A DNA stretch of 64,000 nt from Terriglobia bacterium (lineage in GTDB: Bacteria > Acidobacteriota > Terriglobia > JAJPHL01), in contig JAJPHL010000063.1 of the NCBI GenBank assembly GCA_021325275.1, forward strand, positions 1-64,000, in the 5' to 3' direction. Shown in pieces: positions 8,112-34,006 of the stretch (positions are counted from its first letter, which is position 1; each line of letters starts with the position of its first letter). The translations under genes and the position numbers were made by a program. Under the pieces are notes generated by a model that was given only the letters and a program-made list of their open reading frames with translations, was not told where the DNA came from and searched no databases.

Positions 8112-8572
8112 GTCAGTTAACAATGAAAACCGAAGGCGACACCCAGATTGTGATCACGCGACATTTCGCGGCTCCGCCCGAGGCCGTCTATCGCGCGCAC
8201 ATGGACCCCGCGATCATCCCGCAATGGCTGCTTGGTCCCGACGGCTGGACAATGACCGTCTGCATCAACGAAGGAAAAGTCGGCGGCAAAATCCGCTATG
8301 AGTGGCGGAATGACAAGGGGCATAGCTTTCACATCACCGCCGAAATTCTCGCGTTGGAACCTCCGCGCCGAATTGTCCACGTCGAGCGAATGTTCTTGCC
8401 CGATCCAACGCCGGACAATCACGTCGAGACGCTTTTCGAGCCCGATGGCGCCGGCACGTTGATGACCATGCGTATGACGCTGCCGGACGAGAAAACGCGC
8501 GCCATGATGCTGAAGACCGGCATGGAGCGGGGTATGGAGATGAGTTACGCACGCTTGGACAAGTTGGCGTAG
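8108..8572 (+). CDS. SRPBCC / AHSA1-like domain protein
   Basis: A 154-residue protein of the START/Bet v1-like SRPBCC fold (activator of Hsp90 ATPase homologue 1-like branch). Typical blocks are ITRHFAAPPEAVYRAHMDP near the N-terminus, IPQWLLGP, GGKIRYEW and RMTLPDEKTRAMMLKTGMERGMEMSYARLD near the C-terminus. Members have a hydrophobic pocket for small ligands; no catalytic assignment is possible. It overlaps the ArsR gene by four bases, a very common pairing. Its last codons (GAC AAG TTG GCG TAG) are duplicated at 9222-9236, on the far side of the mobile element inserted immediately downstream. Confidence 0.86.
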   Translation: MSQLTMKTEGDTQIVITRHFAAPPEAVYRAHMDPAIIPQWLLGPDGWTMTVCINEGKVGGKIRYEWRNDKGHSFHITAEILALEPPRRIVHVERMFLPDPTPDNHVETLFEPDGAGTLMTMRMTLPDEKTRAMMLKTGMERGMEMSYARLDKLA

Positions 8573-8573
8573 C

Positions 8574-9221
8574 CTACTTGTCCCTGGAGTTTGGACATTT
8601 CTCGCGCCACGTTGGCGAGTGTTCCGTTACATTCTGTCCCCGAGCCTGCGCAGCAGGCGACAGCTGGTAGCCCAGGGCGACGCCGGAGCGTCTTTTGCCC
8701 TGGGTTTCGTTGACGAACCATGAAAGCTCGCGCAGCGAGCGGTAGGTTCTCAATTCACAGGACTCAACGCAACAGATACCGTTCATCGAACTCAATCTTG
8801 GTGTCGTGAATCCATCCCGAGCTATTTGATTTTAAGTCGCGCACGAATTCGGCCACATGCTGATCTTGGCGAAGACGCACCAACAAGTGCACGTGATCGG
8901 GCATTCCATTCATTTCGATGCAAGCGCCTTTCATGCCGCGAACCGCTCCGCCAAGGTATTGATGAAGGCGCTCCTCGATGGCAGCGTTGATAAACGGCAC
9001 GCGGCCCTTTGATTTGTGAAGGACTGAGGCATCTTCGTGCCTTCCGCCCGCTTCGCGGGCTTTTCCGTCTTTTCGGCCGACCGAGGGCTTCGCCAGAGCA
9101 AAAGAAGCTCCGGCGTCGCCCTGCGCTACCAGCTGTCGCCTGCTGCGCAGGCTTCGCCCCCATTCGCGAGCTTGGAAATTCGCTTTTGCCCATTGCCAAG
9201 CAAAATGTCCAAACTCCAGGA
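8574..9221. mobile_element. MITE-like element, family A copy 1, flanked by 15-bp direct repeats
   Basis: Ends are inverted copies: CCTGGAGTTTGGACATTT at about 8583-8600 and its complement at about 9202-9220. The 15-base direct repeat ACAAGTTGGCGTAGC lies on both sides (8559-8573 and 9222-9236), consistent with a target duplication on insertion between two tightly packed convergent genes. Subterminal parts contain REP-like hairpins (GCCTGCGCAGCAGGC, GCCCGCTTCGCGGGC). The interior holds a decayed Y1/IS200-like transposase. A second, shorter copy in the opposite orientation lies at 33454-33823 and shares both ends but not the transposase. Confidence 0.7.
8764..9032 (-). pseudogene. Decayed REP-associated (IS200-like, Y1) transposase
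   Basis: Remnant of a RAYT/Y1 transposase, the HUH nuclease family that moves REP sequences. The original start is probably the ATG at 9032 (MPQSFTN, a typical RAYT N-terminus). A deletion then shifts the frame before KGRVPFINAAIEERLHQYLGG. The HUH motif DHVHLL survives in MNGMPDHVHLLVRLRQ, followed by FVRDLKSNSSGWIHD. The sequence then jumps directly to KIEFDERYLLR, which is the family's C-terminal end, so the segment with the catalytic tyrosine is deleted. An open frame of 153 codons (8764-9225) exists, but its first part is translated repeat DNA. The gene should be inactive. Confidence 0.72.
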
Positions 9222-9237
9222 ACAAGTTGGCGTAGCT

Positions 9238-11052
9238 TTACTTATCCGACCAGTCGAGGCCGCGCACGAGACCATCGACGCCCGATCCCGCGGGAGCCGC
9301 GACGTACTCCACACGGATATTCGCGCCTTTTTGCTTGCCGCAGGTCATTTCCATCGCGGCTCCCGAGCCGCCTTGCATGACCACGTTATTGGGTTGGTCG
9401 ATCAGGAATCGTTTGCGAACGCCCTCGACTACGAGGATCAACGTCGGCTTGTCGCTGTCGCATAGCAGTTCGACAAAAGTGCCGGCCATCGTCGGCTTCG
9501 GCGCCGGAGGTGCGATCCGTTCGCTCACCGACGTCTCCTCAAGGCCGCGCCGCAGCGTCGGGCGTACGTCTTCCTCGCTGTCGAGCCTGGCGGCCGCTGC
9601 ATGAACGGCGGCCGACGACGCCTGATGGTCGAGCATGTTGAGCATGTTTTGCGCGTTGGACTTCTGCGAATCGTCAGTGGCGTATTTCAGCAGACTCTCG
9701 GCCGAGACTTTCGCACGCGCCAGGTCGTTGGAGTCGTAGTCGGCGATCATGCGCACCAGGAAAAAGCGCGGCGCGTCGGCGCGCGTGACGTTGGTGACGC
9801 TCTGCAAAACCTCGACGGCGTCTTTCGCCTGGTGATTTCGCACCAACGCGTACGCGAATTCGATGCGCACGTCGAGGCGCGTCGCGTCGTCTTCGAGAAT
9901 CCGCCGGAAGGCCGCCATCGAGTGCGCCGGATCGTCTTGCACCATGCGTCCGTAATCCCAGAGCATGCGCGCGCTGCGGCTGCCCGCCTCGAACGCCTTT
10001 TGGAAATTCTGAACCGCGGCGTCGCGGTGATTCCCCCGCCACTCCATGTATCCCAGCAGCGCGTACGCCTCGGGACGCTTTGGCTCCATCGCGATCAATT
10101 CTTCCACCGCTTTCTTCGCGGCGGCTTCATTGCCGGGGTGCTCCAATAATTCCACGAGACGCAATTTCGAATCGAACGGCGTGAGCGGCTGCGCGTTTAA
10201 CGTTCCCACGTCTTTGATCAGCTTGGTAGGAAGAATGAAACCTTTTAAGGTTTGGTTGTGCGCGTATCCTTGGAGTTCCCGGTCCACCTGCGCAAGCGAT
10301 TTTCCGTAGACTTCACGAAACGCCGCCTCGCCGTTCTTGGCGACCAGAACGTTCACGAATTTATTGAAGTCGTGGCGATACGGATCCGTGGTGAGCAACA
10401 TGTGCGTCAGCGCCCATCCTTCGCTGTAAAGGATGCCCGCTTTGTTTTTCTCGTTGTAAAACGGCGAATTGTGATCGACCGAGAGCAGTCCGGCCACCGG
10501 CAACCATTTCTCTTGCAGCATTTGCTGAATGCGTCCCTCGGGCGGCGCGCCGACCAGGATTTTGTTGCCGGTGGGCTTCAGCGTGGAGTAGAAATCGGCG
10601 ATGCCTTCGTTGAGCCAAAGCGGAAAATGCAATCCGGCATGCTGCGTCAGCAGGTGAACGTACTCGTGCACGACCACGGGATACTGCTCGGAGTTCGGAT
10701 GCACCAAGACGATGTAGTCGCGCTCGGCGCCCGCTTGATAGTAAGCGTCGGCGACGGCGTTGAAGCGATAGGGTTGGTATTCTTTTTCCGAATTGAACGC
10801 GACGATCGAAATCGGCAGCGGCTTCTTGTTCATGTCGCCGAAGGTTTCGATGAAGAACGCGCGGATTTGCTCGAAATAGCGCAGCGTGTCGCGCGCCGTT
10901 CCTTCCCCAGCGCTGGTATTCATCTCAAAGTGTTCGGAGTTCAAACGGATCCACTTCGACTCGGCGGAAGCGGGTCCGGCGAACAGCGCGAGAGCGATGA
11001 GGGCAAGAGCGAAGAATGACATCCTAATAATAGAAAAGCGGGAGCCGCACAT
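9238..11052 (-). CDS. Secreted gluzincin-type metallopeptidase with TPR-like repeats
   Basis: Exported protein of about 604 residues. The start at 11052 gives a basic n-region and a clear signal peptide ending ALFAGPASA; ATG 11022 is possible, and a longer frame to 11109 lacks a good ribosome site. A zinc-binding HEYVH motif is followed by the third-ligand motif NEGIADF, the pattern of gluzincin (peptidase MA) enzymes of the DUF1570/DUF2268 kind. The middle of the protein contains helical tetratricopeptide-like repeats (PEAYALLGYMEWRGNHRDAAVQNFQKAFEAG and similar). A small beta-rich domain ends the protein. Substrate unknown. It is convergent with the SRPBCC gene, and the family A element fills the space between them. 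Confidence 0.78.
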   Translation of the reverse strand: MCGSRFSIIRMSFFALALIALALFAGPASAESKWIRLNSEHFEMNTSAGEGTARDTLRYFEQIRAFFIETFGDMNKKPLPISIVAFNSEKEYQPYRFNAVADAYYQAGAERDYIVLVHPNSEQYPVVVHEYVHLLTQHAGLHFPLWLNEGIADFYSTLKPTGNKILVGAPPEGRIQQMLQEKWLPVAGLLSVDHNSPFYNEKNKAGILYSEGWALTHMLLTTDPYRHDFNKFVNVLVAKNGEAAFREVYGKSLAQVDRELQGYAHNQTLKGFILPTKLIKDVGTLNAQPLTPFDSKLRLVELLEHPGNEAAAKKAVEELIAMEPKRPEAYALLGYMEWRGNHRDAAVQNFQKAFEAGSRSARMLWDYGRMVQDDPAHSMAAFRRILEDDATRLDVRIEFAYALVRNHQAKDAVEVLQSVTNVTRADAPRFFLVRMIADYDSNDLARAKVSAESLLKYATDDSQKSNAQNMLNMLDHQASSAAVHAAAARLDSEEDVRPTLRRGLEETSVSERIAPPAPKPTMAGTFVELLCDSDKPTLILVVEGVRKRFLIDQPNNVVMQGGSGAAMEMTCGKQKGANIRVEYVAAPAGSGVDGLVRGLDWSDK

Positions 11053-20288: not shown

Positions 20289-20508
20289 CCGCCGGGTAAG
20301 CTTTCTGTAGTTACTTTACAGTAACTGGCTATCCTTGGAAGCTATTCATGCGACAGCGGTTAACCCTTCCGTAGGTTCGTTTTGTAATTTTCGTTTTCAC
20401 GTCTCGGACGGCTTTCGAAAGCGATTGACAAACGACTCCTGCACACACAGGAGCCAGTGTAATATATTCGCATTATATTCGCTTGTCAAGTGTTTTCGGC
20501 GATGTCTT
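20289..20508. other. Gene-free stretch with small hairpins
   Basis: Together with the family B element this leaves about 570 bases without a gene between the ceramidase-like gene and the second HigBA-like module. Visible are a weak hairpin GTTAC-TTTACA-GTAAC soon after the stop, a perfect hairpin CTCCTG-CACACA-CAGGAG near 20434-20451 and a short tandem TATATTCGCAT/TATATTCGC near 20463-20482. No coding sequence is recognised. Confidence 0.5.
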
Positions 20509-20510
20509 AG

Positions 20511-20700
20511 TTTGAATTTCTGGCGGCTTCGCCGCTACTTTGTGCGGAAAGGCTGTGCCTTTCCGAAGGACTGGAGCCACCTTCCTGCGCGGCTATGTCT
20601 TGCTTGAGCAAGACATAGCCGCGCAATCCTAAAGAAGGTGCTTCGCGGAAGGGCCTAGCCCTTCCGCACAAAGCAGCGGCGGAGCCGCGAGAATTCAAAA
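20511..20700. repeat. Family B inverted-repeat element with perfect central hairpin
   Basis: The ends are inverted copies starting TTTGAATT(TC)TGGCGGCTTCGCCGC and continuing through CTTTGTGCGGAAAGGC to TTTCCG. In the middle is a perfect 18-2-18 hairpin at 20587-20624 (arm GCGCGGCTATGTCTTGCT). A second family member at 33384-33929 shares both ends but is split by a family A insertion. There is no coding capacity. This is likely a non-autonomous mobile repeat. Confidence 0.65.
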
Positions 20701-20808
20701 CGGAGACACCACCTGGTTTTCGCTCTGTTGCGCGGGACCGCCATAGCGAATGGTCTGGGACTCAGCGACTGCGGACGGATTCCGGCAGCAGAAACTCGGG
20801 CTACAAGG

Positions 20809-33383: not shown

Positions 33384-33929
33384 TTGAATTCTTGCGGCTC
33401 TGCCGCGTCTTTGTGCGGAAAGGCTCTGCCTTTCCAGGCGAGGCTACGCCTCGGCCCTGGAGTTTGGACATTTTGCTTGGCAATGGCAAAAGCGAATTTC
33501 CAAGCCCGCGAATGCGGGCGCCTCGCATAAAGCCTAGGGCGTGCGCCGAGCGTCTTTTGCGAGGCGAAGCCCTGGGAAGATTCCCGAAGAAATGGAAGCC
33601 CGCGAAGCCGGGCGCTCGACAACGTCGTTCGGATCGAAAACCGCGGTGTCGAGCGCCCATTTCATGGGCTTCCCTGTTTCTCGAACGGCACCCCAGGGCT
33701 TCGCCTCGCAAGAAGACGCTCGGCGGGCGCCCTGGGCTCTATTCGAGGCGCCTGCTGCGCAGGCTCGGGGACAGAATGTAATCGAACACTCGCCAACGTG
33801 GCACGGAAATGTCCAAACTCCCAAGGCGAGGCTACGCCTCGCCCGCAAGGCGCAGCCTTGCGAAAGTATTTTACAGGCGTTTCGGAAAGGCAAAGCTTTT
33901 CCGCACAAAGAAGCGGCGGAGCCGCAAAG
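33384..33929. repeat. Family B element interrupted by a family A insertion
   Basis: The left end (TTGAATTCTTGCGGCTCTGCCGCGT, then CTTTGTGCGGAAAGGCTCTGCCTTTCC) and the right end (GGAAAGGCAAAGCTTTTCCGCACAAAG, then GCGGCGGAGCCGC) are inverted copies and match the intact element at 20511-20700. Between them lies a complete family A element bracketed by an 18-base direct repeat. Removing it restores a family B element of about 160 bases. Confidence 0.65.
33454..33823. mobile_element. MITE-like element, family A copy 2, flanked by 18-bp direct repeats
   Basis: The ends GGAGTTTGGACATTTTGCTT and (complement) GGAGTTTGGACATTTCCGTG match those of the element at 8574-9221 in the opposite orientation, including subterminal blocks (CTTGGCAATGGCAAAAGCGAA and the complement of CACTCGCCAACGTGGC). 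The 18-base direct repeat AGGCGAGGCTACGCCTCG lies on both sides (33436-33453 and 33824-33841) and is itself a hairpin. The interior is rich in small palindromes and has no transposase. Confidence 0.68.
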
Positions 33930-34006
33930 CGCCCTTTGGTTCAAGGTGACCAATTCCGGTTAGAGTTATAGTGCGCGCCCAGCAACAGAGGCGGAACGAA
34001 AACAAT

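Follow-up and report, generated by a model that had tools for sequence, protein, structure and literature searches.

Family A elements in a Terriglobia bacterium: what looks like a little-known transposon group aiming at palindromes

The locus and its surroundings

The DNA analysed here (the window) is a stretch of 64,000 nucleotides from a Terriglobia bacterium. It holds a short element, termed family A, that lies between two copies of a hairpin and is surrounded by the parts of another repeat, termed family B. The features that the argument needs are the following.

33384..33435, + strand: left arm of the split family B element, 87% to window 20512-20564; intact paralogues occur elsewhere in the genome
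33436..33456, + strand: left copy of the putatively duplicated target hairpin, AGGCGAGGCTACGCCTCG GCC
33457..33823, no strand assigned: family A element, MITE-like, 367 bp, without an intact transposase gene, with inverted ends and a flush 21-bp duplication
33457..33473, + strand: left terminal inverted repeat CTGGAGTTTGGACATTT; identical ends bound the autonomous element L226 described below
33807..33823, - strand: right terminal inverted repeat, slightly diverged, TTGGGAGTTTGGACATTT on the - strand
33824..33844, + strand: right copy of the putatively duplicated target hairpin, AGGCGAGGCTACGCCTCG CCC
33845..33935, + strand: rest of the centre, with the right arm, of the split family B element, 89-92% to the copies on C45, C72, C68 and C52
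20502..20709, no strand assigned: intact family B element of another subtype, for comparison, 208 bp
8559..8583, + strand: left copy of the hairpin duplication of a second family A element, ACAAGTTGGCGTAGCCTACTTGTCC
8584..9219, no strand assigned: second full family A element, both ends exact, with an internal Y1 transposase fragment (PF01797, E 2.5e-14)
9222..9247, + strand: right copy of the hairpin duplication around this second family A element, slightly diverged, ACAAGTTGGCGTAGCTTTACTTATCC

The 18-mer AGGCGAGGCTACGCCTCG is present in exact form at 33436-33453 and 33824-33841, on the two sides of the 367-bp family A element, and both copies fold into hairpins. A search of the whole 6.86-Mb genome with one mismatch allowed finds it at these two window sites only, and two matches were obtained in none of 100 shuffles of the window, even with three mismatches allowed. 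When aligned flush to the element ends, the duplication amounts to 21 bp with one mismatch (33436-33456 / 33824-33844). It is bordered by family B sequence, which covers about 52 bp to its left and about 90 bp to its right. Closer intact counterparts of this B copy are located in the same genome (G000) at C45:9298-9475, C72:124141-124309 and C68:14768-14865; each has one GGCGAGGCTNNGCCTCG hairpin and no insert there. Because these intact paralogues hold the hairpin once, the direct repeat around family A is best read, on sequence comparison, as a target-site duplication (TSD), and for the same reason family A appears to have entered family B when B was already in place. Directly to the left of the duplication, the window copy of B lacks about 17 nt of its linker, which read GAATCCTCGGTCATTTG in C45. 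Family B itself (window 20502-20709 and the copies in G000) is a MITE-like element of about 208 bp with ends GTGTCTCAGTTTGAATTTC, made up of several hairpin modules, and direct repeats of 8-10 bp surround several of its copies.

The original prediction had described an 18-bp direct repeat, itself a hairpin, on both sides of family A, the nesting of A in B with A as the later arrival, and a hairpin as the target of insertion. The exact and genome-unique repeat copies, the split arms and the uninterrupted B paralogues with a single hairpin bear this out. It had also matched the split B halves to the copy at 20511-20700, which is right for the outer arms (85-91%) and wrong for the centre, where that copy is of a different B subtype. 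Finding an empty family B site had been proposed as a check: paralogous ones are those on C45, C72 and C68, and the B paralogues carry the 18-mer module once, not twice without an insert.

In the genome of the window, family A termini are found at over a dozen sites. A hairpin adjoins nearly all of them, and in several cases it is one of the modules of a B copy. The second full element is located at the 3' end of a gene. Its Y1_Tnp (IS200-like) fragment, at window 8764-9030 on the - strand, is found in this one window copy, and we treat it as a passenger. Next to another A terminus there is an intact Y1 ORF of 145 aa with REP-like inverted hairpins on its two sides (G000:C70:298-735, L048). 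Several contigs of G000 end within A-type elements (C12, C16, C17, C18, C19, C48, C70, C71 and C72), which is expected, since these are multi-copy repeats in a short-read assembly. One interior is common to the ends of C16, C48 and C70 and another to those of C17 and C71; the latter ends in a reading frame, ...LLGKAAAA and stop, that resembles the C-termini of L226 and L280. No homologue of the L226-type transposase is assembled in this genome, in which IS1182 transposase is represented just by a weak fragment below cut-off, on C17.

Family A ends in other genomes

A scan with CCTGKAGTTTGGACATTT gives at least 114 stretches, some of which are expected by chance, mostly in Acidobacteriota and Verrucomicrobiota; other matches, among those listed, are in Desulfobacterales, Geobacter, Cloacimonadota, Chlamydiae and elsewhere. 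The 16-mer TGGAGTTTGGACATTT occurs in 13 of 399 sampled genomes of the window's class, with up to 29 copies per genome, and its reversed control has no occurrence in the same 399 genomes. DNA just outside the ends is hairpin-prone. Over the 40 nt outside 187 distinct termini, the mean folding energy is -12.8 kcal/mol, compared with -8.3 for random stretches of the same loci (P 9e-27), -9.2 for shuffles (P 4.5e-12) and -7.8 at 80-120 nt further out, and the foot of the hairpin is 0-4 nt from the element end at 157 of the 187.

Direct repeats beyond the 99% level of a mispaired control flank 21 of 62 inverted-end pairs, where 0.5 would be expected. The other 41 pairs have no recognisable TSD; some of these are chance matches, have one diverged end or are rearranged copies. 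At L191 and L278 the two flanking hairpins differ from each other, which could be explained by recombination between copies, as was proposed for ISRm22 (PMC1525189). In an Akkermansia-labelled MAG, the flanks of some A-like copies are conserved, and these copies may be part of a larger repeat. From 21 hits of a second scoring, for flush repeats, we picked 17 well-resolved cases by hand, leaving out poor or very short repeats. In these 17 the TSD measures 21.4 +/- 2.0 bp; in 16 of them a palindrome dyad lies no more than 1 nt from the TSD centre, compared with 12% of shuffled sites.

Paralogous empty sites of the L215 and L212 insertions have a single hairpin, and repeat copies across the L259 junction are consistent with a single-hairpin empty site. 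The orthologous site of L250 in G060, where the flanking genes are kept and the intergenic region has diverged and is without the hairpin, is uninformative in this respect. The target of L215 is a REP-like hairpin pair (GCGCGGGCTAAAGCCCGCGACTAC...) with dozens of copies (G033, G060), and the L212 insertion lies in a host that is an element in its own right, its ends being related (GGAGTTTGGACATTC...AATGTCCAAACT), which makes it a second nested case (L212/L334; G052:C753, C403). Since the hairpins vary between copies while the ends stay constant, the flanking hairpins appear to be the target and not a part of the element.

The preference for palindromic targets that had been suggested for the family therefore holds in its own genome, where nearly all A termini adjoin hairpins, and extends to unrelated genomes. 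Flanking repeats of always 15-18 bases, on the other hand, are not what is seen: family-wide the TSD is 17-24 bp, typically about 21 bp. The expectation that other copies would be flanked by repeats came true for the 21 pairs mentioned and failed for about two thirds of the 62.

The transposase and its relation to known families

The same ends are found on an element with a transposase gene. L226, in an Acidobacteriaceae MAG, is a 1,471-bp element with family A ends and an exact 24-bp hairpin TSD, and its one long ORF (458 aa) encodes a DDE transposase. Both the ends and the style of duplication of family A are thus shared with it. L279 (G587) is about 2,035 bp long, has a homologous transposase at 44% identity and different ends, TCAAGTTTTTC, and is flanked by a 24-bp hairpin TSD with one mismatch. 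L226 and L279 are the only two autonomous elements found with a complete TSD; transposase-homologous sequence also adjoins family A ends in L135, L231 and L133, and the more distant homologues L280-L285 have no clear ends or TSD.

Some neighbouring features may be mentioned. L278 (G587:C236, 1789-4325) is a sibling element with ends CTGGAGTTTGGCC that has inside it, besides the DDE transposase, a DruA/DUF4338 gene (PF14236, E 6.5e-46). Judged by eye, the transposase ORF of L231 (4448-5623) runs into group II intron maturase-like sequence, as if an intron had inserted, and at L226 1858-3045 (+ strand) the autonomous element has two neighbours, a gene for an IS91-like transposase and the terminal part of a tyrosine recombinase.

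The best HMM for the transposase is NF049999 (IS701_3), with E values from 1e-41 to 1e-48 and scores of 140.8 (L226), 162.4 (L278) and 162.3 bits (L279), below the curated cut-off of 170. There is no IS1182 model among the HMM matches of the L226 protein. The DDE residues are conserved, and the YREK residues (Y347, R350, E354, K361) are invariant in seven homologues. Plasmid homologues are about 25% identical. A sequence-profile search of the PDB with the transposase gave no match; the predicted structure (pLDDT 80, pTM 0.85) has a single significant fold match in the PDB, the Tn5 transposase (3ecp_A, E 1.9e-7).

IS701 was split from IS4 and has a TSD of exactly 4 bp (PMC2266710). The new group resembles it in its best HMM, matched below the curated cut-off, in having a single DDE transposase gene and in an element size of about 1.5 kb. 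It differs in its palindromic target, in a TSD of about 21 bp (21.4 +/- 2.0) instead of 4 bp, and in its ends, CTGGAGTTTGG / CTGGAGTTTGGACATTT against ---YACT-Y--YR, a published consensus that does not cover all IS701 clusters; its YREK motif is full, whereas that of IS701 is incomplete. With IS4 proper (including IS50/Tn5 and ISRm22) it shares the DDE and Y(2)R(3)E(6)K motifs and the Tn5-like fold, and symmetric targets are known there too: ISRm22 inserts in REP elements at the axis of the palindrome (PMC1525189). The duplications of about 10 bp in IS4 have been tied to one helical turn, and those of 4-6 bp in IS701, ISH3 and IS1634 to about half a turn (PMC2266710). However, IS4 duplications range from 7 to 13 bp and that of ISRm22 is 6 bp, while the new group copies a whole stem-loop of about two turns. 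We are dealing with IS4-superfamily DDE transposons whose TSD fits neither IS701 nor IS4.

A stem-loop target is also met in IS1272/TnSha1 of the IS1182 family, which has no sequence consensus and inserts repeatedly into the same kinds of hairpin (PMC5678879, PMC4923244). Its transposase is of a different family, and it removes all or part of the stem-loop and makes no TSD, whereas the new group behaves like a stem-loop-targeting element that duplicates its target. Such a duplication has been drawn as a hypothetical pathway next to the one in which IS1272 loses the stem-loop, as is observed (PMC5678879, Fig. 13, pathway b). IS1549 and IS1634 (IS1634 family) are related to IS4 and have long direct repeats, for which no mechanistic model was proposed (PMC2266710); theirs extend from 8 to 514 bp, unlike the nearly constant and palindrome-centred repeats of the new group. 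Family A is like bacterial MITEs in being short, in having ends in common with an autonomous element and a TSD of the parental type, and in having no transposase gene; it is unlike them in having an entire stem-loop, about 21 bp long, as its TSD. A search of the literature for the end sequence, or for IS701 with palindromic targets, found nothing relevant. A named group covering these elements may already exist.

Alternative readings, mechanism and implications

Several other readings of the locus have to be weighed. If both hairpins belonged to the mobile unit, or to family B as an array of hairpin modules, no target would have been duplicated; the modular build of B and the conserved flanks in the Akkermansia-labelled MAG are in keeping with this. 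Yet the 18-mer is confined to two window sites in the genome while B paralogues hold the module once, and elsewhere hairpins vary around constant ends and empty sites have one hairpin, so that this explanation is largely refuted and we give it hardly any credence. Insertion might also be directed generally to intergenic DNA rich in REP elements or terminators, with hairpins at the flanks by coincidence. Intergenic hairpins of the REP-like kind are indeed numerous among the targets, and when a loose hairpin cut-off is applied to both sides, 23% of shuffled flank pairs pass it, but the coincidence would have to place TSD centres on dyads as precisely as described above and to let folding fall back to background at 80-120 nt further out, which seems to us extremely improbable. 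Finally, the mover could be a Y1 (IS200/RAYT-like) single-strand transposase acting at hairpins, with family A as its REP-like derivative, as the Y1_Tnp fragment in the 8584-9219 copy and the intact Y1 ORF near an A terminus on C70 may suggest. To our knowledge, Y1 elements (IS200/IS605 and RAYT) lack terminal inverted repeats and do not duplicate their target; family A shows both features, and the autonomous elements with family A ends have a DDE transposase and no Y1 gene. A Y1 mover is accordingly very unlikely in our estimate.

We consider it highly probable that family A is a MITE-like, non-autonomous derivative of the IS4-superfamily DDE group, and that this group inserts at palindromes and duplicates them by the mechanism proposed here. 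The link between the MITE and the transposase consists of about 17 bp of end sequence together with the style of TSD, and it suggests that family A would be mobilised in trans by an L226-type transposase; since no homologous transposase is assembled in the genome of the window, this is something that we infer for that genome. The transposase would recognise the CTGGAGTTTGGACATTT ends, and the sites at which it inserts them would lie symmetrically on the two sides of a palindrome dyad. In a staggered strand transfer, the 3' ends of the element would be joined to the two strands of the palindrome about 21 bp apart, that is, about 10-11 nt on either side of the dyad and roughly two helical turns in all. 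Gap repair would then copy the stem-loop to each side of the element. In the window, the target would have been a hairpin module within an older family B element.

The palindrome might be recognised as a symmetric B-form site or as an extruded cruciform. That it is recognised as an extruded cruciform or hairpin and measured from the hairpin foot, in place of a fixed two-turn B-form stagger, is in our judgement almost an even bet. Longer palindromes tend to go with longer TSDs (rho 0.61, p 0.01), hairpin feet lie close to most element ends, and IS1272 is an independent precedent for structure-directed insertion. Against it, the L226 palindrome extends past its 24-bp TSD, TSD lengths vary little (SD 2.0), and with a looser measure of the palindrome the correlation is weaker (rho 0.42, p 0.055). 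The fuller proposal, that a previously unrecognised IS4-superfamily group targets extruded hairpins or cruciforms, that its ends are joined around the dyad at a distance of about 21 bp, and that every insertion duplicates the stem-loop, is one that we put forward tentatively, with the chances somewhat against it. If it is true, each jump turns one hairpin into two, and a target that amplifies itself in this way could account for nesting and help to spread REP-like hairpins.

Insertion sequences that seek stem-loops, as known from the literature cited, remove the target or make short duplications inside it. Here an enzyme group of the Tn5 type apparently duplicates the stem-loop in its entirety, and its stagger is about two helical turns as compared with about half a turn for IS701 and one for IS4. 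This gives sequence evidence for what had so far been no more than a possible pathway in a drawing (PMC5678879, Fig. 13, pathway b). It also opens the structure-directed choice of targets by a DDE transposase to direct testing, and it may be relevant to the long repeats of IS1549 and IS1634, which lack an explanation. What we see looks like a little-known group of transposons that aims at palindromes, leaves unusually long duplications of about 21 bases and has relatives in several bacterial phyla, and it offers a mechanism for the multiplication of intergenic hairpins.
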